A DNA stretch of 39,389 bases, from IMG/VR virus record IMGVR_UViG_3300044714_000054, positions 1-39,389 of that record. The stretch is one strand, 5' to 3'. Below the pieces are notes generated by a model. The model worked only from the letters and a program-made list of their open reading frames with translations. It was not told the origin of the DNA and did no database searches. Positions within the stretch are counted from its first letter, which is position 1, and each line of letters opens with the position of its first letter. Both the position numbers and the translations under genes were made by a program. Of this stretch, positions 6,680-39,389 are shown piece after piece. The stretch is from a virus.

Positions 6680-7387
6680 TCAGAACGTGATCGCCGTCCC
6701 GAACATCGAACAGACCGCGTTTCCGAGCCCGTTCGCGCCATCGGCGGCGTCAGTGGCGCCGACTTGAATCGTCGTCACGTGCCCCGCGTTTGAGATGTAT
6801 TCCAGCTCGGTCGAGGCACGGTTCGCCGCGCTCGACACCGGCGACATAAGCACCTCGAACGTCGTATTGGCGAGACCGAATCGCGTAATGATCGAGAACG
6901 CGAGACCCTCGCGGACGTCGAGCACGCCGGGCGCGACGTCGGTCGCCTGAGCGATCAGCGTCAGCCGTCCGGCCGCGTTGCACGACGCGTTTAGGTCGAC
7001 GCCGTCGAGGTGCGCGACCGTGCTCTCGGCCGTCGACGGGTCGGCGGCGTAGTGGAACTCTTCCGCGTTATTCCCACCGGGACCGGCCGGGCCGATCGGA
7101 CCCGGGTCGCCCTGCGGGCCAGCGGGACCGGTAGCGCCGACCGCGCCAGCGGGACCAGCGGGACCGATCAGACCTTGCAGCCCCATCGGCCCAGCCGGGC
7201 CAGCGGGACCGACCGGACCGGCCGGACCCGGGAAGCCGCGCGGACCGCGCGGACCCTTGACGACCTTCGCCGGGTGCGCGGCGTAGCCGCCACCGGCAGG
7301 CATCGCCGACGCAGCGGCGACGCCGACCAGACAGAACGACGCGACGAGCGCGAGCGTGATCGACGCTCGCCTAGCAAACAGCTTCAT
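6680..7387 (-). CDS. Secreted collagen-like protein
   Basis: 235 residues. A clear signal peptide ([18 protein letters not shown], then [12 protein letters not shown]) covers residues 1-29. Next come about 60 residues of Gly-X-Y collagen repeats ([19 protein letters not shown]...), and then a 130-residue globular C-terminal domain with two Cys (ASC and AVC), suggesting a disulfide. Secreted proteins with this layout are known in host genomes of the Actinomycetota, so it resembles a lysogenic-conversion gene rather than a virion part. It stands alone on the minus strand between a plus-strand terminator and the next operon's end. ATG 7387 follows a GAGGGG ribosome site. Distinct from the phage's collagen-like tail fibre. 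Confidence 0.8.
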
Positions 7388-10275: not shown

Positions 10276-10745
10276 CTAATCCCGGTGCTACGTCGCCACT
10301 GGCGCCGGAGCGCGTTCCCGATCTCCGGCGCGGCGCCCGACCCGAACTCGCCCAGCTCGCGACAGAGCCGAAGCCGCTGCGCCGGATTGAGCCGCTCGAA
10401 CGCGCTCTCGAACGTGCGCGAGAGGTCGGGGTTATCGAGCAGCGCGTGCCCCATCGACGTCAGCCGCCACGACTGCGACCAGCGCCAGCCCCGCGCGTCG
10501 GTCGACTCGACCTTTTCGCGGTCGCCCTTTTCGAGCCAGCCGTACCGGCGCAGCCATCCGAGCCTGATCCCGATCCCCGAGCGCTCGGGCGCGTCGAGAT
10601 CCTCGCCGAGCTGCGCCCGGACGCCGTACGTGGTCGCCCAGCCGTTCTCGTCCGCGAGGTCGTCGACGATCCCGAGGATCTCGGGGTCCGAGATCCCGAA
10701 TAGCGTCGCGTCGACTCGACCGTTGTTCCGGCGCCTTGCGGTCAT
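10272..10745 (-). CDS. Winged-helix phage protein
   Basis: 157 residues. ATG 10745 overlaps the previous stop as ATGA. Residues about 17-60 contain FGISDPEILGIVDDLADENG followed by a SGIGIRLGWLRRYGWLEKG helix, a layout typical of winged helix-turn-helix proteins seen in actinophage early operons. WRLTSMGHALLDNP follows as a second small domain. Probably a DNA-binding regulator. The C-terminal tail is Arg-rich. Confidence 0.72.
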   Translation of the reverse strand: MTARRRNNGRVDATLFGISDPEILGIVDDLADENGWATTYGVRAQLGEDLDAPERSGIGIRLGWLRRYGWLEKGDREKVESTDARGWRWSQSWRLTSMGHALLDNPDLSRTFESAFERLNPAQRLRLCRELGEFGSGAAPEIGNALRRQWRRSTGIR

Positions 10746-11239
10746 TTCTCGTTCAGCGTCTCACGGGTCAGCCGGAAGAATTTCTGAATCCCGTCTTGCC
10801 GGGCGAGCCGGATCACGTTCGCTTGCCGGAGCTGCTCGAACGCGACCGCCATCTTTGACGAGTGCGCCAGCGCCCCCGTGAGCTGCCCCCGGATATCGAC
10901 TTGCCGGAACTCTTCGTGATCCTCGGCGTATGCGCGGATCGTCGCCTCGATCTTTTCCATCGCCTCGGGTCCGACCTTCGACTGCACCGGCCGGACCTTC
11001 TCGCCCGACGCGGTCGCGGGCTTCGGCTTGCGCCCGAACCTCGGACCCTCGCCCTTCAGATCGCGGATCGCCTTCTCGTAGCGCTTCGTCAGCTCGTCCA
11101 GCTCGGCCAGCTCGGCGCGGAGCGCCTGCGCCCGGCCCTCTTGCCCGTCGAGCTGCGCCTGAATCCGTGCGACCTCTTGATCGACGAACGTCTGAGCGAG
11201 CCCGTTCGTCGACGCGACCCGATCGTGTACCTCTGGCAT
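10742..11239 (-). CDS. Coiled-coil plus winged-helix DNA-binding protein
   Basis: 165 residues from ATG 11239, behind an AAGGGAAGGA ribosome site; a GTG ten codons upstream is less likely. Residues 15-65 form a charged coiled coil (EVARIQAQLDGQEGRAQALR, then AELDELTKRYEKAIRDL). After a basic linker (RFGRKPKPATASGEK) the C-terminal 70 residues look like a winged helix (MEKIEATIRAYAEDHEEFRQ to VIRLARQDGIQKFF). Likely a dimeric DNA-binding protein. It is the first gene of the minus operon leading to 7615 and starts just below the 11258 palindrome. Confidence 0.72.
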   Translation of the reverse strand: MPEVHDRVASTNGLAQTFVDQEVARIQAQLDGQEGRAQALRAELAELDELTKRYEKAIRDLKGEGPRFGRKPKPATASGEKVRPVQSKVGPEAMEKIEATIRAYAEDHEEFRQVDIRGQLTGALAHSSKMAVAFEQLRQANVIRLARQDGIQKFFRLTRETLNEK

Positions 11240-11257
11240 TTCGCGCGTCCTTCCCTT

Positions 11258-11272
11258 CGTGTGTTGCACACG
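11258..11272. promoter_or_regulatory. Perfect 6-3-6 palindrome upstream of the 11239 gene
   Basis: CGTGTGTTGCACACG, two six-base arms around TTG. It lies 19 bases before the ATG at 11239 and is a good operator candidate. Related CTTGCAC-bearing words occur at 11329 and 19750-19935. Confidence 0.5.
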
Positions 11273-11305
11273 ACGGCTCTACGAAGGGACGAGAGCCGCC
11301 GTGCG
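11267..11305. repeat. Imperfect 14-base inverted repeat
   Basis: CACACGACGGCTCT pairs with AGAGCCGCCGTGCG in 12 of 14 positions around an 11-base loop. It overlaps the palindrome at 11258 and lies between the divergent genes. Confidence 0.5.
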
Positions 11306-11448
11306 CGATCTCACCGGTAAATTGCGCCCCGTGCAAGCACACGACGCAGGGGCGCACCATAGCGAGAGTCGCGGCGGCATGTGGGAAGATCTGCGCGCGC
11401 CCGAGCTTTAGCCCCGTAAAACCTACGCAAAGCTCCCCGTCCGGCTCC

Positions 11449-11496
11449 GTATACCGAAGCGCGAATGACTGACCTCCCATTCGCGCATTGGTATAC
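11449..11496 (+). other. attP: Predicted attP of the serine integrase
   Basis: A 48-base dyad: GTATACCGAAGCGCGAATG (11449-11467) and CATTCGCGCATTGGTATAC (11478-11496) match as inverted repeats in 17 of 19 positions around a ten-base centre (ACTGACCTCC). Large serine integrases are known to use roughly 48-50-bp attP sites with symmetric half-sites and a non-palindromic central dinucleotide, usually beside int. The geometric centre here is AC at 11472-11473. It ends 41 bases before the integrase start. It could instead be a regulator's operator. Confidence 0.65.
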
Positions 11497-11497
11497 T
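11469..11497 (+). promoter_or_regulatory. Integrase promoter inside attP
   Basis: An extended -10 (TGGTATACT, hexamer TATACT at 11492-11497) and a -35 CTGACC (11469-11474, four of six matches to TTGACA) are separated by exactly 17 bases. Transcription should begin near 11504, giving a leader of about 34 bases. The box pair straddles the predicted attP crossover. Confidence 0.6.
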
Positions 11498-11537
11498 TGC
11501 TCTCGCAGCGCCCACCCCCTGAAAGAGAGCCCCCCGA

Positions 11538-12899
11538 ATGAGACTTGACCACGTCATCCGCACGAGCCAGCGCAAGCAAGACGCGCTGAGCCCGCGCCAG
11601 CAGCGCCGTATCGCCGCCGACTTCGAGCGACGCACCGGGCACGAGGTCGTCTTCGTGCACGACTCCGGCCGGAGTGAGTCGGGTAAGACGATGGACCGCG
11701 CCGCACTGCGCCTGCTGCGCGAGCGGGTCCGCGCCGGTCTGACTGACGGCGCGTTCCTCTCCTACCTCGACCGCCTCGGGCGCGCACCGATCGAAGAGTC
11801 GATGACGTTCGTTCGCGGGCTCGTCGAGCTTGACGGCGGGAAGCTGCTCGCCGCCGACTGGAGCGACGAGCCGATCGACCTCGCCCGCCCCGACGTCGAA
11901 GACATGCTCGTCTTTCGGTTGCAGATGAATCGGTCGATGTGGAACAAAGCCGCCGCGCGCCAGCGCGACAACAAACGCGACTCGCTCGCGGCCGGAAAGT
12001 TCATCGGCCCGACGCCGTTCGGCTATCGCAAGGTGAAGGGTCGGCTCGTGCCCGACGAGCAGTGGGCGCCGGTCGTGCGCGAAGCGTTCGAACGCGCCGC
12101 CGCTGACGGCATCGACGCCGCCCGCGACTACCTGCTCGACGTCGCGCCGGACGAGCGCATCTGGCGCTCGGACATGGTTCGGAAACTGCTCGCAAACCGG
12201 ACCTATCTCGGCGAGCACGCGAAGCGCGGGCTCGTGGCGGGCACCCATCCCGGGACGGGCGAGACGATCCCCTACAAGCGGCACGCGGCGCTCGTCGACC
12301 CCGAGACGTTCGACGACGCCCAGCACGCCCCGCGCGGCCGTCGCTCGAACAGCGACTATCTGCTCTCGGGGCTCGTGCGCTGCGAGTGCGGGGCGAACCT
12401 GATCGGGCAGTGGAACCTCGGCAAAGCGCCTCGGTATCGGTGCACTCACAGCCACGCGACCGTGCTCGCCGCGCCGCTCGACGAGCAGGTGCGCCGCGAC
12501 TGCGCCGAGGTACTCGCCGACGACGAGGTGCGCAAGCGCTTGCAGCCGGAAGGTCTCGACGAAGCCGAGGACGCGATGCGGGCGGCGATCGCCGAGCGCG
12601 ACGCCTTCGTGATCGCCACGAGCGCGCTATCGAGCGACTTCGGCGCGCATATCGCGAAGCTCGACGCCGCCGCCGTCGCGACCGAAGCCGAGTACCGCCG
12701 TCGCCTCGGACGGGCGAAAGCGGTCGAGCGCCTGCCTGCCGCCGACCGGCTCGACGACGACGACGAGCTGCGCCGGGGGCTAGCCATTCTTCGGTCGCGG
12801 GGGATGACGTTCGAGCTTCGGCGCGCGCCGGGTCCGCTTGCCGACCGGGTGACGCTTGTCGACGACGTCGAAGACGGACCCGGGGCTCTCGCGGCGTAG
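11538..12899 (+). CDS. int: Large serine recombinase (integrase)
   Basis: 453 residues. The N-terminal resolvase domain carries Arg8-x-Ser10 (IRTSQRKQD), with Ser10 the predicted nucleophile, and YLDRLGR at 76-82. The recombinase domain begins at AAGKFIGPTPFGYRK (151-165). A zinc ribbon lies at about 276-307 (LLSGLVRCECGANLIG), then a coiled-coil stretch near 340-410. The length fits the large serine integrase family, which integrates phage DNA by a double-strand-break mechanism. The ribbon is unusual: C-x-C at 282/284 is followed by CTHSH at 302-306, so His may replace the last Cys. ATG 11538 follows the operon-style GAAAGAG start module. The last 120 bases overlap an opposing small gene. 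Confidence 0.95.
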   Translation: MRLDHVIRTSQRKQDALSPRQQRRIAADFERRTGHEVVFVHDSGRSESGKTMDRAALRLLRERVRAGLTDGAFLSYLDRLGRAPIEESMTFVRGLVELDGGKLLAADWSDEPIDLARPDVEDMLVFRLQMNRSMWNKAAARQRDNKRDSLAAGKFIGPTPFGYRKVKGRLVPDEQWAPVVREAFERAAADGIDAARDYLLDVAPDERIWRSDMVRKLLANRTYLGEHAKRGLVAGTHPGTGETIPYKRHAALVDPETFDDAQHAPRGRRSNSDYLLSGLVRCECGANLIGQWNLGKAPRYRCTHSHATVLAAPLDEQVRRDCAEVLADDEVRKRLQPEGLDEAEDAMRAAIAERDAFVIATSALSSDFGAHIAKLDAAAVATEAEYRRRLGRAKAVERLPAADRLDDDDELRRGLAILRSRGMTFELRRAPGPLADRVTLVDDVEDGPGALAA

Positions 12900-12965
12900 C
12901 CCTTCGAGCACCGCGTCGAGCAGCGCCGCCCGGGCGCGCTCGCGGAGATCGGGCGGGATCGTCAC
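12780..12965 (-). CDS. Small basic protein antisense to the integrase end
   Basis: 61 residues. GTG 12965 overlaps the previous stop as GTGA, continuing the minus operon. An N-terminal helix (IPPDLRERARAALLDAVLE) is followed by a Lys/Arg/Pro-rich tail (KRTRRAPKLERHPPRPKNG). The 3' 120 bases are antisense to int. The coupled start supports translation, but the overlap with a confident gene lowers certainty. It could help bind nucleic acid through its tail. The minus operon has no visible terminator before it. Confidence 0.5.
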   Translation of the reverse strand: MTIPPDLRERARAALLDAVLEGLRRESPGSVFDVVDKRHPVGKRTRRAPKLERHPPRPKNG

Positions 12966-13183
12966 GCGACGGCCCGCCCTTTTTCGTGCTCGACGTCGGC
13001 GATCACCTCGTCGAGCGTGAGCTGCCGAAAGTGCGCCGCGCCGACGTGCCGGGCCATGTTGCACGGCCGCAGCTCGCGCTCGCACCAGAGGCACCGGCGC
13101 CGCGTCATCCCGCCGACGACGAGCGCCGCAAGCGTCGAGTCGCCGTTGAAGTGGTCGAGCCAGTAATCCGGGTCGTCGATCAA
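12962..13183 (-). CDS. C2H2-like zinc-finger protein
   Basis: 73 residues. CLWCERELRPCNMARHVGAAH gives Cys-x2-Cys-x11-His-x4-His, close to the classic zinc-finger spacing, and is followed by a helix (LDEVIADVEHEKGRA). The start is TTG 13183, overlapping the previous stop as TTGA. A single finger of this type usually binds DNA or mediates protein contact; phage examples are known. Function unassigned. Confidence 0.68.
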   Translation of the reverse strand: MIDDPDYWLDHFNGDSTLAALVVGGMTRRRCLWCERELRPCNMARHVGAAHFRQLTLDEVIADVEHEKGRAVA

Positions 13184-13476
13184 TGTCGCCGCCGATTGGT
13201 CTCGAAGCCGCCGATCGGGATCGCGCGCACCGACTGCGGCTCGTCGGGTTGGGGCTCGAAGCGCCGGTCGGCCTTGCGCCTCGCGGCGCGCAGCTCGTCG
13301 AGCGCCTCTTCGTCGGCCTCGGTCCGCGCCTTCACGCGCTCGTCGAGCGCGATCCCGTCGCGGAGAATGATCGCCCGCGCCTCGTCCTCGGTGTAGCCGT
13401 CCGCGATCAGTCGCTCACGGCGGCGCTTGTTCCGGACCCAGTTGCGCCGCTTGATCCGGTTGCGTTGCGTGGTCAT
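13180..13476 (-). CDS. Highly basic helical protein
   Basis: 98 residues. ATG 13476 lies four bases before the previous stop (ATGG overlap). The N-terminus is extremely basic (QRNRIKRRNWVRNKRRRERL), then GYTEDEARAIILRDG and a charged helix (TEADEEALDELRAARRKADR). A UBA-like 'GYTEDEARAII' turn is present. Likely nucleic-acid binding by charge; no specific family recognised. The open frame extends further upstream, but only this start fits the gene overlap pattern. Confidence 0.62.
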   Translation of the reverse strand: MTTQRNRIKRRNWVRNKRRRERLIADGYTEDEARAIILRDGIALDERVKARTEADEEALDELRAARRKADRRFEPQPDEPQSVRAIPIGGFETNRRRH

Positions 13477-13829
13477 GGCAGCCGCCGCCACCGGACCGGG
13501 CAAAGGTCGGTGCACGAGATCGCCGACCGTAGATTCACGTTCAGGTCGAACGCCCGGCCCGCGACGTATGGCCCGTGGTCGTCCATCGTCCCGACCGCGC
13601 AGCCGACATAACAGAACCGGACGCGAGCCCCGCACGGTAGAAAGAGGCTCGCGAACCGACTCCCCAGTTGCGCGCTCACCCCGCACGCGCCGATCCCGCC
13701 TTGGTCGTACCACGACGCGATCGAGGTCTGTAACGGCGGCGGCGGGTCAAAGTTGCGCCGGTGCGTGTGCGCCAGCGCGCTACCGGCGACGCCGACGACG
13801 GCCGCGAGCAGCCCGGCGAACGCGGTCAC
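13473..13829 (-). CDS. Secreted RlpA-like double-psi beta-barrel protein
   Basis: 118 residues with an N-terminal signal segment (MTAFAGLLAAVVGVAGSALA). It is followed by the RlpA/expansin-like core: SIASWYDQGG (36-45), LPCGARVRFCY (64-74) and DDHGPYVAGRAFDLN (83-97), whose Asp-x-Gly-Pro and Asp-Leu positions match the family pattern. Six Cys suggest disulfides. RlpA-type domains act on cell-wall glycan or bind it, so a role in wall remodelling during infection or lysogeny is plausible. Finding it inside a recombination operon rather than the lysis cassette is unusual. ATG 13829 overlaps the previous stop as ATGA-type. Confidence 0.75.
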   Translation of the reverse strand: MTAFAGLLAAVVGVAGSALAHTHRRNFDPPPPLQTSIASWYDQGGIGACGVSAQLGSRFASLFLPCGARVRFCYVGCAVGTMDDHGPYVAGRAFDLNVNLRSAISCTDLCPVRWRRLP

Positions 13830-20246: not shown

Positions 20247-20375
20247 GCGGACGTCGGCCGCGACGCGGTCCTCGGTGATCGACCGGACGCGGACCTCGGT
20301 CACGGCCGCGCCGAAAGCTCGAATCGCCGCGTCGAGCGCGAGCATCCCCCGCACGGTGCGCTCGAACTCGTTCAC
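20196..20375 (-). CDS. Small hypothetical protein at the lysis-operon end
   Basis: 59 residues from GTG 20375, overlapping the lysin stop. Strand-rich (VTEVRVRSITEDRVAADVRL, then STATVTITIDATD). The last 51 bases are antisense to the repressor gene end. Coupled to the endolysin, so it may be a lysis accessory, but no motif is visible. Last gene of the 39-20 kb late operon; no intrinsic terminator was found after it. Confidence 0.5.
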   Translation of the reverse strand: MNEFERTVRGMLALDAAIRAFGAAVTEVRVRSITEDRVAADVRLRPSTATVTITIDATD

Positions 20376-21280
20376 GGCTTCGGCGCGAACAGCGCCAGCC
20401 CCGCGATCGACTTCCCCGGCGCGCCGCCCGCCCAGCTCGACGAGCCCTTCGCCTGCCACGTAAACGCGACGCTGCCGTCGTCGAGCACGACGAACACGTG
20501 CAGGTTGCCGTTTGCCGCCTTGCCCGCCGTCACCCCTCGGATCTGCCGCCCGGACGGTGCGGGCGCGAACGGTGCGAGCCCGGCGATCCGCTTCCCGGCT
20601 TCGCCGCCCGACCAGCTCGTTTTATCCCTCGGCTGATAGGCGTAGAACAGCGCCCCCGGTCCGGCCGCGAACACGTGCAGCGCGCCGTTATCGGCCACGG
20701 CCGACGCGGTCATTTCCTCGGCCTCGGCCTCGGGCGCAGCTCCGGCGCCGGGGAGCACGGCGGTCGGCCCGAGCCCCTTCGCCCGCGCATAGCGCGACTG
20801 GCGATCGGAGAGCCCGTTTAGCCCGCCGTTGATCCGGCGCGTCGCGGCGGTCACGTCGCCGGTGTCACTGATCCCGTTTAGCCCGTTCGCGTGCCACCAC
20901 CACGCCGACACGCGGAAAGCGTGCTGCGGCTCGGCGGCGATCTGCGGCCGGTTCACTAGGTCGAGCTTCAGCGCCGCCCCGGCCTGCGTGTAGTTGTAGC
21001 GGCCGGTGATCTGAATCGGCCCCCGGCCCTTGTATCGCTTGCCGTCGCCCGGCTGCGTATTGCCGAGATCCTTCCGGCCCTCGTACGCCGACCCGTCTGC
21101 GATCTCTTCGAGGTAGCGCAGCGAGAGTGACTCGTGCCCCACCTGCGCGAGCCACATCCACGCCCGGTTTGCGTTCGTGATCTGAAACTCGCGCATCGCC
21201 GCGTCGTTATGCGGCAAGTACGCCTGCGCCGTCGACCGGGCTAGCCCCGGCATCGCGGCTAGCAGCGTGTCGACGTTCAC
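20372..21280 (-). CDS. GH19 chitinase-like endolysin with C-terminal propeller repeats
   Basis: 302 residues from GTG 21280. The GH19-type catalytic domain spans about 1-185: WMWLAQVGHESLSLRYLEE contains candidate acid Glu50 and Glu58-59, and YKGRGPIQITGRYNYTQAG (83-101) is the family signature. These enzymes cut the glycan strands of peptidoglycan. The C-terminal 100 residues carry two propeller-like units (FAAGPGALFYAYQPRD..., FVVLDDGSVAFTWQAKG), each with GGxxGKxIAGLAxFAP. The same units end the amidase encoded just upstream. Together with that amidase it would break the wall after holin action. Confidence 0.85.
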   Translation of the reverse strand: MNVDTLLAAMPGLARSTAQAYLPHNDAAMREFQITNANRAWMWLAQVGHESLSLRYLEEIADGSAYEGRKDLGNTQPGDGKRYKGRGPIQITGRYNYTQAGAALKLDLVNRPQIAAEPQHAFRVSAWWWHANGLNGISDTGDVTAATRRINGGLNGLSDRQSRYARAKGLGPTAVLPGAGAAPEAEAEEMTASAVADNGALHVFAAGPGALFYAYQPRDKTSWSGGEAGKRIAGLAPFAPAPSGRQIRGVTAGKAANGNLHVFVVLDDGSVAFTWQAKGSSSWAGGAPGKSIAGLALFAPKP

Positions 21281-22179
21281 GGCCGGGGCGCGAACGGAGA
21301 GAGCGCCGCGACGCGTCCCTGCTGCCCGCCCGACCAGCCCGTCTGACCCTTCCCCTGCCACGTGTACCACGTCGACCCATCGTCGAGCGTGGCGAACACG
21401 TGCAGGTTGCCGTTAGCGGCCCGCTCGGCGGCGACGCCCCGGATCGTGCGCCCCTGCGGCGCCTCACAGAACCGGCGCAGCCCGGCGATGCTCTTCCCCG
21501 GCGCGCCCCCGTTCCAACTGTTCTCGTTCGGGCGCTGCCACGTATCCCAGATCGTCCCGCGAGCGGGACCGACGACGAACACGTTGAAGACGCCCGAGTC
21601 GGCTAGGCAAGTGGTGATCATTTCGACCTCGTCGATCGTCGGTGGTTGTTCAGGTGCGACGCCGCCCGTCGCGGGCATCCCCGCCCGGACCCACGCGTAC
21701 AGGTCCGGCCCCGGGCAAGCGGTCGAGGTGACGTCCCGGTGACCGTTCATCGTCAAGCGCCGCCCAGACACCGTGCACAGCCACTCGTAAAGCGCCCGCA
21801 CTGAGTTTCGAGCAGCTTGTGACAGTGGCGCGGTCGGGGTCCCCCCGGCCGTCGACGGCTGAAATACGCAGCAGCTCCAGCCGTCGATATTCGCGTTGTT
21901 GTTCCCGTTCGCCGGACCCCGGACGTCGCGCCCGCACCCCTCGAAGAGCGTCCCGCTCTGACCGCATAGGAAGTTGTACGCGGGCGCCGCCTCGCTGCTG
22001 ATGCTGCTCGCGTGCATCCGCTCGATATCCCGGCACCACTGCCGCTCGTCGCGGGTCGACATCACCGGCCAGTGGACGACGAACCGCCGCCGCTGCGACG
22101 GCGAGACGCCACGATTCCCGGCGACTCGGGTCGCGGCGCCCCACGACGCCCGGGAGACGATCGGCGGCTGAGCGCTCAT
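21277..22179 (-). CDS. N-acetylmuramoyl-L-alanine amidase endolysin
   Basis: 300 residues from ATG 22179. An Amidase_2/PGRP-type zinc amidase occupies residues 5-170: SRASWGA, FVVHWPV with His36, AYNFLCGQSGTLFEGCGRD, MNGHRDV with His147, and TACPG with Cys155, giving the His/His/Cys zinc set. It cuts between MurNAc and the stem peptide. After a Pro linker (PPTIDEVE), residues 186-300 hold two propeller-like units that closely match those at the end of the GH19 lysin. The gene is coupled to the acidic small protein upstream (TAATG overlap). Confidence 0.88.
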   Translation of the reverse strand: MSAQPPIVSRASWGAATRVAGNRGVSPSQRRRFVVHWPVMSTRDERQWCRDIERMHASSISSEAAPAYNFLCGQSGTLFEGCGRDVRGPANGNNNANIDGWSCCVFQPSTAGGTPTAPLSQAARNSVRALYEWLCTVSGRRLTMNGHRDVTSTACPGPDLYAWVRAGMPATGGVAPEQPPTIDEVEMITTCLADSGVFNVFVVGPARGTIWDTWQRPNENSWNGGAPGKSIAGLRRFCEAPQGRTIRGVAAERAANGNLHVFATLDDGSTWYTWQGKGQTGWSGGQQGRVAALSPFAPRP

Positions 22180-25587: not shown

Positions 25588-25931
25588 GTCACACCCGCCT
25601 CTGTCAGCTCGAACATGGCCCGCAGCCGCATCACGGCCGGGTCGGTCGGATCGAAGTCGCCCTCGACGATCGGGCGGGCTCGCGGCTCGGCGTCCTCGAT
25701 CGCGAGCTGGAGCTGCGAGCGCGCCAGCTCGGCGCTCGGCGAGAACTCCAGCCGGTCGGGTCGGCCGAAGCCGGGGAGCGTCGAGCGCTCGCCTGCGCGG
25801 GTGCGCACGACCAGCTCGACACAGTCGGCGATCTCGGCCTCTGAGCCCTGGAGCGTGGTCGCGGCGTGCGCGCGGCCGTCGCGCGTGCGCTCGAAGCGGA
25901 ACGGGATCGCGAAGTGACGCGGGTCAGGCAT
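25584..25931 (-). CDS. Baseplate wedge protein W (gp25-like)
   Basis: 115 residues from ATG 25931, the usual gp25/W size. The conserved lysozyme-like fold is visible in [33 protein letters not shown] and [20 protein letters not shown]. It binds the J-type protein to form baseplate wedges. Contiguous with the J-like gene. A diagnostic of contractile tails. Confidence 0.9.
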
Positions 25932-28299
25932 GTAACAGCCCCTCGATCGTGGTCGGGCCGGGTTCGATGACGGTGCCGGGCGCGAGCGGGGTTACGAACG
26001 TCACCTCGATATACGTGTGCATTTCGCCGCCGCCGACGTTGGTCGCCATGTCGGTATTGCGGTTCGAGTAGCCGCCCATCCCGCCGAGCCGCTGCCCGGC
26101 GCGCAGCGGCACGGTCCCGTCGATCGAGAACGTCGCGAACGGCAGCGGGTTGCCGACCATCTGCGCGGGGACGTAGCCCATCCTGACGAGCTGGAAACCG
26201 CCGTCGACCGCGACCCCGAGCAAAAAATAAGTGTCCGGCTGCCCGACCGTGTGCGAGATCGCCCACGAGATAATCGCCCGGTAGTAACCGTCGACGGGGG
26301 CGACGTATTCCTCGCCGAGAAATAGCGAGGCATCGCCGCCGCCCGGCGTGTCATAGGGCAGCCGTGCGAACTGACCGGAAGCGAGCGAGAACGCCGCCGC
26401 CCGGTAGCGCCGCGCGTAACGCGGGTCAAAGCCAGCGGGACCCCGGTCGCCCTGGTCGCCCTTATCGCCCTGGTCGCCCTTGTCGCCAGGGTCGCCTTTA
26501 TCGCCCGGGTCACCCTTCGGGCCGGTGGCGCCTGGTAGCCCGATGCCGGGCTCGCCGGGGAAGCCCTGCTCGCCCTGGTCGCCCTTCGGCCCCTGCACGC
26601 CGGGCGGGCCGATCGCGCCCTGATCGCCCCGGTCACCCTTCACACCTTGCGGACCTTCCGGGCCGGTATCGCCGATTTCGCCCCTCTGGCCCTCTGGCCC
26701 GGCCTCTCCGGGCACGCCCTGCGGTCCTGCTGGCCCAGTGTCACCCGGGGGACCCGTGGCCCCAGACGGCCCCAGATCGCCTCGGGGACCCTGCTCGCCG
26801 GTGTCGCCCTTCGGGCCTGCCGGACCGCCCGGCCCCTGCGCGCCGGGCGGGCCGACGAGGTGATCGCCGTCGATGACGACGCCGCGCACCTTGACGATGT
26901 ACGCGAGCCGGACGTACGGGGGCAGCGTGTTATGCGGCTGCCCGCCGCCCTCGGGAACCACGCCGAGGTAAGCCCACTGTTGCTCTAGGCCGGTGAGAGC
27001 GAACGGCACGGCCGTATCACCCACCGCCATCGAGTCGGCGCGGAAGTAGTAGCTCGTCTCGTCCCGCTTGTGCTCGTGGCGCGGCATTTCGTCGATCGTC
27101 AGCGTGTGATCGCGCTCGCCGCCGATCTCGCCGAGCTGCCCGCCCGAGAGCACGAACCGGTCGCGGAGATCCGGCACGGTGAACGTGCGCGGGTCGCCGT
27201 TGAGATCGACCGACCAAAGCGGGTTGCCCGCGAACCACTCCGTAACGGCGAAGTTGAAGCCCTGGAGATAGTCGAACTGCTCCAGCCGCCGCCCGTCAGC
27301 GAGCACGAAGTCGTCGGGGATCGTGCGCCCGGTCCACGCGATCACGCTCCCGACTAGAGCCGTCTCGTGCCCGACGCCGTCCTGCCCGCGATCGCCCTGC
27401 GGCCCCTGCGCGCCGGTCGGTCCGGCCGGTCCGATCGGCCCGTCAGGTCCGGCCGGGCCGGGCAAGCCGGGAGCGCCGTCGACCCCGTCGACGCCGTCAG
27501 CGCCGGGCGGACCGGTCTCGCCGGGCGGGCCGACCGGCCACTCGTCGACGGTCTCGGTGTCGAACTCGATGTTGAATCCGAAGTAACCCGGGTCGCCAGC
27601 CGTCGCGTGTACCTGCCCGTCCGCATACACGGTGACCCGGCCGTGGGCGCTCGCGTTTGTGTCGATGCCGTACAGCAGGTTGCCCGGGGGGCGATACCCC
27701 TCGGGGAGCACGAACATCGCGGCCGTGATCGAGCCAGCGACGCCCGCCGCGAGCCCCCGGATTGTCACCTTGCCGTCCGGCCACTTCCGGAAGCTGACGG
27801 GCGACCACTCGCCGCTGAGGTCGTAGTTGCCCCAGCTATTCAGCCAGATCGGCTCGCCGGGGTCGCCGACCCTGCGCCACGGTTCGAGAATCACGTCCGA
27901 GCTTGTGCCGGGCGGGCCGGTGTCACCGGTGGCGCCGGTGTCACCCTTCGGCCCCTGCGCACCGACCGGCCCGCGCGCGCCGTCGACGCCTTGCGGACCC
28001 TCCGGTCCGAGCGGTCCGATCGGGCCGGGCACGCCTTGCGGGCCTCGGTCGCCGGTCACCTTCGGCGGGTTGAGCCAGAGCCGCCCCCGGTTGGTCATCG
28101 TCGCGATTACGTGGTCGCCGACCTCGACGCCGAGGTCACGCGGCAGGCACGGCCCCCACCGTAGATCGGGGTCGTATCCCTTGATCACGACCCACGGCCC
28201 GCGCGCCGTGATCCGGGTCACCTCGGCTTCCCAGCCTTGCGCGTTGCCGAGCGCGGTCGGGACCGGCTCCGGCGTCAAGAGCTGATCGAGATCCGGCAT
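25924..28299 (-). CDS. Tail fibre with collagen-like, collar and C1q-like domains
   Basis: 791 residues from ATG 28299 (TAATG overlap). N-terminal OB-like domain ([17 protein letters not shown]), then Gly-X-Y collagen segments at about 83-131, 257-309 and 482-623, a tail-collar domain at 315-475 ([47 protein letters not shown]), and a C-terminal beta-sandwich (630-791) with [13 protein letters not shown] and [12 protein letters not shown], resembling C1q-type receptor-binding heads. The collagen parts should form trimeric rods. Host attachment is the likely role. Distinct from the secreted collagen protein at 6680. Confidence 0.85.
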
Positions 28300-33616: not shown

Positions 33617-35398
33617 CTAGACCAGCGCCTCGGTGATCGCCTGCTTGACCACCTGGATCTCGACCTCTTCGCCGAACGGCGCCATGCGCAGCACGATCAC
33701 CGCGCGGATATAGCCGTCTGCGATCGACTCCGGCGTGTTCACCGTGTCGTCAGTGACCACCCGGCACGCCTCGTCGAACGTGTCGCCGTACAGCGCGTCG
33801 GGCCAGTAGTCGCCGCACATGCCCGACAGCTCGCCCCGGAACCGGTCGAGCGTGCGCCCCCGGCCGTCGATGTTCTCGAAGACGTAGCGCTCGGCGATCT
33901 CGTCGCCGCGCGCCTTGATCGCCATCGCGAGCCGGACGTTTGAGAGCAGCAGCCAGCCGCGCTCGGGACCCTGCGGGTCGACGAGCGAGCGGAAGCCGTA
34001 GCCGCGCACCGTGCCCTGCACGATCCGCGCCGTGTTCACCCCGGCCCACATGAGCCGCTCGCGCTCGTCGTCTGACCATTCGCGCTCTAGCGCGACGGCG
34101 AAGCGCGACTGCCCGAAGCTGCCAGCGGGCGCGCGGTTCGGGTTGCCGAGCGCGTCGAGCCGCGCGGTCATGCCGGATTGCAGCCCCGACCACGCGACGA
34201 GCCGCCGCGTGGCGGTCGCCCTGCCGGGAACGACCGCGCGCGGGTCGAACAGCCCGCCATAGCGAGCCGTGTCGAGCGCACGCAGCGAGCGAACGTGTGC
34301 CGTCAGCCCGGCCTCGTCGAGCGTCGGGCTCGCGTCGAGGTACGCGACCCGGTTCCCGGCCTGAGCTGCACTCAAGAGCGCTTCGTGCTGCGGCGCCGAC
34401 GTCTTCCCGGGCGCCGTGAGCTGGCCCGGCCCGAGCGTGTCGGGGATCGACATCGCCGCGTCGAGCAGCGCGTACGGATCGACGACGGGGACGGTCCCGT
34501 CGTCACCCCCTGAGAGGTCCCACGCGCCCCCCTGGAGCGCTGCGTCGAGGTCGGTCGACTCGATCATCACGGCCTCGCTCGTGACCGCCCAGTCGGCCAG
34601 ATCGGCGACCGTGACGAGGGTCGCTAGCGAGCGCTCGATCACCCGGGCCTCGCGCATCACGACCGCCGCATAGGCCGGGTCGGGAGCGTCGACGTCGGCC
34701 GCGACGACGTCGAACGGGTCAGACGTGCCGGTCCGGCCCTCGTCGTCCTCGACCGTGATCACGACCCCCGACGCCGCCGCCGAGTAGATGTGCGACCAGC
34801 CGACCACGCTCGAACCGTCGCCCCAGTCGATCGAGGCGATCTCGGAGAGCTGCACGCGGCCGTCGTCGTCGTCGACCCAGATCAGGATCGACCCGCCGAT
34901 CGTCGCCGCGCCGTCGTCGTTCAGCCCGGCCCAGATGTCGATCGTCAGCTCGTCGGCGGCGCCCTCTTCGCGTGTCTTCGGCGCGGTTGTGAGTGTCAGT
35001 CGCCGTTTCGGCTTTCGCGCCTGCTCGGCGTACGGGCGCAGCCCGGCCGCGCCGACGATCGCGAAGGTGAGCCCGTCGCCCCAGACGCCGACGTCCTGCG
35101 AGGTCACGGTGAACGCGCCGTCAGCGTCGGCGGTCGCGGCGACGGCGCCATCGGTGAGCCGCTTCACGTAGCAGCGCGCGCCGCCGTCGCGGAAGAAGCT
35201 CTCGACGGCGTCGAATACGTGCGGGGGGTTGATCCGCGCGCCGAAGCGCTCGCCGAAACTGTCACCCGAGCGCACGAGTGTCGGCGCGCTCGGGCCGAAC
35301 TCGGTCTCGCCGACGACGAAGAGGACGTCGGTCGCGGTCGCCGCCCCAGTCGGCGGGAGCACGTCCGAGATAACGACATTGGTTCCGGGTCGGGACAC
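33617..35398 (-). CDS. Tail sheath protein with an inserted PKD-like domain
   Basis: 593 residues from GTG 35398. Sheath signatures: TDVLFVVGETEFGPSAPTLV near the start, SFGERFGARI, and in the C-terminal half VQGTVRGYGFRSLVDPQG, ERYVFENIDGRGRTLDRFR and the strand EEVEIQVVKQAITEAL at the end. Residues about 150-235 form an extra module (LTIDIWAGLNDDGAATIGG, IASIDWGDGSSVVGWSHIYS), matching the WGDG-x(n)-HxY pattern of PKD/Ig-like folds. The contractile sheath would display this domain on the outside. Confidence 0.92.
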   Translation of the reverse strand: MSRPGTNVVISDVLPPTGAATATDVLFVVGETEFGPSAPTLVRSGDSFGERFGARINPPHVFDAVESFFRDGGARCYVKRLTDGAVAATADADGAFTVTSQDVGVWGDGLTFAIVGAAGLRPYAEQARKPKRRLTLTTAPKTREEGAADELTIDIWAGLNDDGAATIGGSILIWVDDDDGRVQLSEIASIDWGDGSSVVGWSHIYSAAASGVVITVEDDEGRTGTSDPFDVVAADVDAPDPAYAAVVMREARVIERSLATLVTVADLADWAVTSEAVMIESTDLDAALQGGAWDLSGGDDGTVPVVDPYALLDAAMSIPDTLGPGQLTAPGKTSAPQHEALLSAAQAGNRVAYLDASPTLDEAGLTAHVRSLRALDTARYGGLFDPRAVVPGRATATRRLVAWSGLQSGMTARLDALGNPNRAPAGSFGQSRFAVALEREWSDDERERLMWAGVNTARIVQGTVRGYGFRSLVDPQGPERGWLLLSNVRLAMAIKARGDEIAERYVFENIDGRGRTLDRFRGELSGMCGDYWPDALYGDTFDEACRVVTDDTVNTPESIADGYIRAVIVLRMAPFGEEVEIQVVKQAITEALV

Positions 35399-38263: not shown

Positions 38264-38878
38264 TTACGTCGCGCGACCCGCCTTGCGCCTGATCAGAGCG
38301 TCGAAGCCGCCCTGATCACCGGCCCCGCCATTGGCGAGCCGCGATCCGGCACCGAGATCGGCTCTGCGGACGCCGCGAGCCTGAGCGTCGCGCTCTAGGG
38401 CTTCGCGGAGCTGCTGCGCCTCGCGCGTCAGCCGCTCTTTCGTGTCCGCGTGTAGGTACTTCGCAAATTCGGGGATACCCTCGGCAGCGGCGACGTCCAT
38501 CGCGAGTTTCTCGCGCCGCAGCTCGGTCAGCTCTTGCTCGGCCTTCGTGCGCGCCTCGCGCTCGCGCTCGATCTCCGTCTTGTTCGCGTTGTCGATCTCC
38601 GCGAGCTTGGCTTCGGCGGCTTTCAGCCGGGCCTCGGCGTCGCGGCGCTCGCCGCGCTCGGTCCGGAGCATCGAACGCACGGCGTCGGGGTTGCGCGCCT
38701 CGGCGATCAGTACGCGCTCGGTGGGCGAGAACTCTTCGTCACCGGGCACCGGCGCCGGGGGACGCGTGTCCGGCGCCGGTGCCCCACTAGCCGGGGGTGC
38801 GGTCGATGCGGGTCCGGCCGGTGGTTGAGAGCCACTCGGGGGGGACGGGGGAGAGGTCGAGGTCGCGTCTTCGGTCAC
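38264..38878 (-). CDS. Scaffolding protein
   Basis: 204 residues from GTG 38878. Pro/Ser-rich start, then a long coiled-coil (RTERGERRDAEARLKAAEAK, IEREREARTKAEQELTELRR, LTREAQQLREALERDAQARG). Gly-rich C-terminus with basic end (LIRRKAGRAT). Highly charged coiled-coil proteins of this size next to the capsid are the usual scaffold, guiding prohead assembly and then leaving or being cut. The GTG overlaps the portal stop (TAGTG). Confidence 0.85.
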   Translation of the reverse strand: MTEDATSTSPPSPPSGSQPPAGPASTAPPASGAPAPDTRPPAPVPGDEEFSPTERVLIAEARNPDAVRSMLRTERGERRDAEARLKAAEAKLAEIDNANKTEIEREREARTKAEQELTELRREKLAMDVAAAEGIPEFAKYLHADTKERLTREAQQLREALERDAQARGVRRADLGAGSRLANGGAGDQGGFDALIRRKAGRAT

Positions 38879-39389
38879 TAGTCAGTCGGCGCCGAAGGTA
38901 TCGACAGCCCGGACGTGACCTCGGGCGCCGTGGGCGCCGCTGCCGCCGCTTCGTCGGCGAGCTGAGACCAGCGCTCGATCTCTTGCGGGCTCGCCCCGTA
39001 GCGCGCCCAGAGAGCCTCTCGGGGGACGCCTAGCGTCGACATCTTCAGCAGCGCGTCGACGAGCTGCGCTTCGGTCCGGCGCTCGGGGTCGGTCCAGATC
39101 GTCTCGGCGTCGCGGATCGCCGCTTTCTCGGTCTCGCCGACCGCGAGGAACGAGAGCCGGATCGACTCTTCCCACGGCTCGCCGTACCACCGATGTTTGC
39201 GCTTGACCTTCGAGACGAGCCCCGATTCCGACGCGCGGAGCGAGTCGCCAGACGGGTACTGACCGAGCCCGGCCGTCAGGTAGTGCGGCGGCGTGCGGGT
39301 CTGCGCGGCGATGTGCTGCACGATCATTTCGATCTGTTTGACGTAGCCGAGCCCCTCGTGCGCGCCCAGCTCGCCGAACTTCGCGTCGT
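38878..39389 (-). CDS. Portal protein (C-terminal part, SPP1-type), cut by window edge
   Basis: About 169 residues of the portal C-terminus are visible. The pattern IVQHIAAQTRTPPHYLTAGL, PSGDSLRASESGLVSKVKRK, HRWYGEPWEESIRLSFLAVG and DAETIWTDPERR fits the SPP1-like portal family, where the crown and stem helices follow. Portals are the DNA entry ring that binds the terminase. The missing N-terminal part (perhaps 300-350 residues) would run past position 39389 towards terL if the molecule is circular. Ends at TAG 38880-38878. Confidence 0.88.
   Translation of the reverse strand, partial: DAKFGELGAHEGLGYVKQIEMIVQHIAAQTRTPPHYLTAGLGQYPSGDSLRASESGLVSKVKRKHRWYGEPWEESIRLSFLAVGETEKAAIRDAETIWTDPERRTEAQLVDALLKMSTLGVPREALWARYGASPQEIERWSQLADEAAAAAPTAPEVTSGLSIPSAPTD

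Follow-up and report, generated by a model that had tools for sequence, protein, structure and literature searches.

A candidate integrase promoter overlapping the predicted attP of an uncultivated phage

A 48-bp imperfect dyad immediately upstream of a serine integrase gene (int) is very probably the attP of that integrase, and the int promoter likely overlaps it. We propose that the dyad is attP, that it contains the int promoter, and that integrase represses its own gene; for this explanation as a whole, we estimate a probability of about 0.62. The work concerns an uncultivated virus record of 39,389 nucleotides (IMGVR_UViG_3300044714_000054), which we refer to at its full length as the window. 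The sole close relative with an intact attP is IMGVR_UViG_3300050821_001792 (L002). The relevant features are as follows.

10742..11239, minus strand: divergent leftward gene, function unassigned; left boundary of a 298-bp gap
11449..11496, no strand: predicted attP, 48-bp imperfect dyad; best dyad of the window, with an equal-sized dyad at L002:1536-1583
11449..11467, no strand: left arm (P, distal to int), GTATAC-CGAAGC-GCGAATG
11469..11474, plus strand: -35-like hexamer CTGACC; spans the predicted crossover, not conserved in L002
11472..11473, plus strand: predicted crossover dinucleotide AC at the dyad axis; AC also at L002:1559-1560
11478..11496, no strand: right arm (P', int side), CATTCGC-GCATTG-GTATAC; would remain with int after integration
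11489..11497, plus strand: extended -10-like element TGG-TATACT; TATAC doubles as the outer integrase motif
11521..11529, plus strand: possible ribosome-binding site GAAAGAGAG, 8 nt upstream of the int start codon, assigned by eye
11538..12899, plus strand: large serine integrase, 453 aa; PF00239, PF07508; phrog_95 integrase, E=3.9e-41

RESULTS AND DISCUSSION

The dyad and the adjacent integrase gene

The dyad consists of two 19-nt arms, complementary at 17 of 19 positions, that flank a 10-nt centre (ACTGACCTCC). Its axis falls between 11472 (A) and 11473 (C). The score of 17/19 pairs (half-positions 6-24) is the highest among ~78,000 axes in the window, and the runner-up scored 15. Shuffled sequences never reached 17: dinucleotide shuffling of the whole window (40 replicates) peaked at 16, and 1000 shuffles of the surrounding 401 bp peaked at 15. 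The 39 kb contain just two copies of GTATAC, one at each end of the dyad. A serine-integrase attP is characteristically an imperfect dyad of ~50 bp with an outer and an inner motif and a central dinucleotide that is not palindromic, and all of these are present here. The first-pass annotation had described a 48-bp dyad at 11449-11497 and read it as attP. The dyad proved to be real, with an exact span of 11449-11496; the claimed end takes in a T just outside it. The attP reading gains strong support from the adjoining integrase gene, the same half-site and central AC in a relative, and the unintegrated layout of the surrounding DNA.

The integrase has the domain order of a large serine recombinase (N-terminal resolvase, recombinase, zinc ribbon). 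PF00239 (residues 7-146) and PF07508 (177-266) scored above their cut-offs, and the zinc ribbon PF13408 (275-306) fell slightly below, at 23.9 versus 25.3 bits. The catalytic serine is Ser10, which is invariant in an alignment of five sequences. The zinc ribbon of the window's integrase (residues 282-302) takes a C-x-C form (RCECG) that is common to the integrases of the window, L002, Maja, and L009; many relatives have C-x-x-C. A two-sequence profile gave no match among solved structures. int is a lone rightward gene flanked by leftward genes, and its promoter should therefore be within the 298-bp gap.

The window has linear ends that cut the terminase large subunit gene on the left and the portal gene on the right (terminase genes at 1-1739, portal gene at 38878-39327). 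We infer that the contig corresponds to an almost complete phage genome in permuted form, in which an internal dyad would represent the free form of the site, neither attL nor attR. Elsewhere in the window, a gene for a tail sheath (33617-35362) points to a contractile tail. There are also two collagen-like or tail-fibre genes, one in the tail cluster (25924-28299) and one isolated in the early region (6680-7387). The chitinase-class (GH19) protein encoded at 20372-21370 is probably an endolysin.

Conservation of the dyad and controls for its axis

We compared the dyad to its counterpart in L002, whose integrase is 61% identical to that of the window. A 48-bp dyad occupies the same place in L002, with 61 bp from axis to start codon versus 66 bp in the window. 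The half-site GTATAC-N6-GCGAAWG appears in all four arms of the two sites, with the outer GTATAC 19-24 bp and the inner GCGAAWG 6-12 bp from the axis, and AC lies at the axis of both. With the sequences in register, the two halves match at 15/24 and 18/24 positions, versus 5-11/24 in flanking blocks. DNA farther upstream is unrelated, and the left neighbour gene differs. The outer-motif distance coincides with the symmetric flanks required in Bxb1 attP (PMC3642061), and contacts over 50 bp of attP are expected for an integrase dimer (PMC3783163).

As a control, the blind axis finder used for the window was also run upstream of int in phiC31, TG1, and phiBT1. It returned TT in both phiC31 (X59938) and TG1 (AB251920), in agreement with the recorded core and crossover, and the axis it placed in phiBT1 (GT) fell within the recorded attP. 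When the dyad search was applied blindly upstream of further serine integrases, many showed no clear axis, and we therefore draw no general claim from it. The dyad is real, L002 shares its half-site and AC, and the axis finder recovers recorded crossovers; the dyad is thus very probably attP. A strong dyad (16/22, central GT) directly before a serine integrase gene in another viral contig (IMGVR_UViG_3300036832_000452, L154:3325-3380) is likely an attP as well.

A candidate int promoter within the dyad

CTGACC (11469-11474) and TATACT (11492-11497), separated by 17 bp, match a sigma-70-like consensus at 9/12 positions, with TGn before the -10; this consensus may not be that of the host. The pair is the only sigma-70-like site in 10801-13500 (2.7 kb), for which the shuffle mean was 0.2. 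When GTATAC was held fixed and the remaining bases were drawn from the intergenic composition, the chance of a 9/12 site was 1.3%, or 0.06% with TGn. The 298-bp gap contains two TAnnnT hexamers, and only the one at 11492-11497 has a -35-like partner; the other, at 11318 (TAAATT), has none. The dyad axis between 11472 and 11473 lies within CTGACC and the -10 lies in the right arm, as had been claimed.

The two promoter elements differ in their conservation. L002 has CACACA at the -35 position, and the -35-like hexamer of the window is not conserved. The right arm of L002 carries TGG-TATAC as the window does, with A rather than T as the sixth -10 base. TGn precedes TATAC only in the right arms of the window and L002 and in neither left arm. 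The window, L002, phiC31, TG1, and L154 each carry a TAnnnT hexamer 16-24 bp to the right of the axis and none in the left arm. This feature is not universal, as it is absent from the P' arms of phiBT1, Shady, and Heather. The promoter match is better than chance and its extended -10 is shared with L002, but the -35 is not conserved. These comparisons point to an int promoter that likely overlaps attP, and its extended -10 probably lies in the int-side arm.

One alternative, which we consider unlikely, accepts the site as attP but treats the promoter likeness as a by-product of GTATAC and places the int promoter elsewhere, for example at TAAATT 11318. Integration would then sever int from its promoter entirely. 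TATAC is within the integrase motif and also in the left arm, so TATAC alone is no evidence for a promoter, and the -10 box could arise as a side effect of that motif. TATAC is likewise found in L002, where the -35 and the last -10 base fail, and the promoter in the phiC31 record (163-190) is mostly left of the crossover (196-198). However, the 11318 site has no -35, a 9/12 match has just the 1.3% chance given above once GTATAC is fixed, and TGn stands before TATAC in the two right arms and neither left arm.

Comparison with phiC31 and TG1

An int promoter that overlaps attP is an arrangement already known from phiC31. In the Streptomyces phage phiC31 (X59938, NC_001978), the attP dyad is immediately upstream of the serine integrase gene, a promoter is annotated across the dyad, and a TTGAGT-17-TAGGGT pair also begins on the crossover. 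Within TTGAGT, the TT forms the crossover dinucleotide and the remaining bases are on the int side, so the phiC31 hexamer would survive integration; in the window, the first three -35 bases would be exchanged. The phiC31 attP lies within the int promoter region, and vector integration does not abolish int expression (PMC11784100). The systems differ in that int expression after integration is a measurement in phiC31 and a prediction here, and the phiC31 integrase is only remotely related to that of the window.

The attP of the Streptomyces phage TG1 (AB251920) measures 46 bp, with two imperfectly palindromic 19-nt arms and a 2-bp crossover on record. It is located 58 bp before int, and a TTGCTC-18-TAGCCT pair occupies the same position as the pair in the window. 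Unlike the window, TG1 has a central TT instead of AC and no annotated promoter, and the attP and integrase sequences are unrelated.

Proposed mechanism and the predicted effect of integration

In our model, an integrase dimer would bind the 48-bp dyad, with the outer motif of the arm next to int also serving as the extended -10 element TGG-TATAC. RNA polymerase and integrase would compete for the same attP DNA. Such competition would cause int to be self-repressed both on attP and on the hybrid site at the int side, where the P' arm is retained. A comparable arrangement is found in the KplE1 prophage, where the intS promoter overlaps the integrase-side attachment site. Self-repression by the integrase over its own promoter was measured in that system, in which an arm-type site lies over the -10 box (PMC2951348). 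KplE1 differs in that IntS is a tyrosine integrase that uses arm sites and a directionality factor, and its self-repression was demonstrated experimentally. We consider occlusion by bound integrase to be a likelier form of int control than feedback from integration.

Serine integrases require attB to share the central dinucleotide with attP. CTG/ACC would therefore become NNN/ACC upon integration, with NNN supplied by the host. Because int is to the right of the axis, the right arm and the -10 would stay with it. Integration would exchange only DNA left of the dinucleotide, and int expression may go up or down. With the extended -10 in the arm kept by int, integration would swap just half of a weak -35, and retention of the TGn-extended -10 leads us to expect a quantitative change in expression. 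The first-pass annotation had held that integration keeps the -10 and replaces the -35 side. The former would apply to the whole extended -10, but the exchange would affect just 3/6 of the -35 bases. Integration is probably not an on/off switch of int.

A further alternative, also unlikely, is that integration removes the -35 side, that int expression falls (or rises) as a result, and that this response was selected as a built-in switch. The position of the dyad axis within the -35-like hexamer favors this idea, as do state-dependent recombinase promoters in other elements. Recombinase transcription differs between the circular and integrated states of ICEKp1, ICEclc, and ICEEc1 (PMC13023037) because recombination alters the upstream DNA, and a circle-formed promoter for tnpX of Tn4451 is named in the title of a paper cited in PMC13023037 (Lyras and Rood 2000). 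The switch is shown or reported in those elements, whereas for the window it is no more than a possibility drawn from sequence; the ICEs are also conjugative elements at tRNA genes, not phages. Against a selected switch, the -35 is not conserved in L002, half of the hexamer and the entire extended -10 would remain with int, phiC31 int is still expressed once integrated (PMC11784100), and the three distant integrated relatives described below have a promoter-like pair across the junction. Since the overlap is known from phiC31 and integration does not switch off int there, a built-in feedback in the window is possible but unproven. Also unlikely is a dual role in which one site, with its outer motif identical to the extended -10 and its crossover in the -35, provides both self-repression and an integration-triggered change in integrase synthesis, the level after integration being determined by the host gene at attB. 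It is highly improbable that the dyad is instead a repressor operator or terminator: its position between divergent genes is common for operators, but no T run follows it, it is not among the terminator-scan results, it accompanies the integrase gene in L002 too even though the left neighbour there is a different one, and its size, two-module half-site, and central dinucleotide fit serine attP sites, including the 46-bp TG1 site. The terminator scan and the L002 comparison led us to reject both readings.

For attP with an internal, self-repressed int promoter, the window offers a clean case: the integrase-binding motif and the -10 box would be the same letters, which makes integrase self-control directly testable. 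It also supplies a well-bounded attP with the consensus half-site GTATAC-N6-GCGAAWG, together with its integrase, from an uncultivated phage. The two may constitute a new site-specific recombination pair.

Integrated relatives

We searched for integrated copies of the phage. An 8-residue pattern had no match in genome contigs, and a broader profile found only distant relatives there, the best with 31% identity over most of the protein and others with up to 36% over part of it. Genome-by-genome searches reached 38% identity at best, and neither this phage nor L002 turned up there as an integrated copy. A degenerate DNA pattern of the dyad had no match in viral contigs, and phage and plasmid collections contained distant integrases only.

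The nearest integrated relatives (34-38% identity) come from the class containing Candidatus Gaiellasilicea, which we take to be Thermoleophilia. Three of them (L115, L119, and L120, in genomes G308, G412, and G332) are integrated at the 5' end of efp, the gene for elongation factor P; the coordinates in L115 are L115:9757-9853. Host homology ends within the first codons, and the element provides a new efp start codon. These elements part efp from its native upstream DNA. On the int side of all three, TAnnnT follows 18 bp after TTGGTG, TTGGTA, or TTCGTG, and these hexamers are within efp. Such promoter-like pairs across the junction suggest, at 34-38% identity, that int is not necessarily disabled by integration. 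For the element in G308, a search across 80 kb did not locate the far junction from which its attP would be rebuilt. Because the cores of the efp-integrated relatives do not match ACTGACCTCC, we gave up predicting the attB of this phage from them.

A viral contig (IMGVR_UViG_3300025914_000096, L155:5700-5770) contains 17 bases identical to the efp start (CCGTTCTTGAACTGGTT). These bases sit between the arms CCGATATGG and TACCGTATCGG, ~270 bp before a serine integrase gene. This site is likely the attP of an efp-targeting phage.
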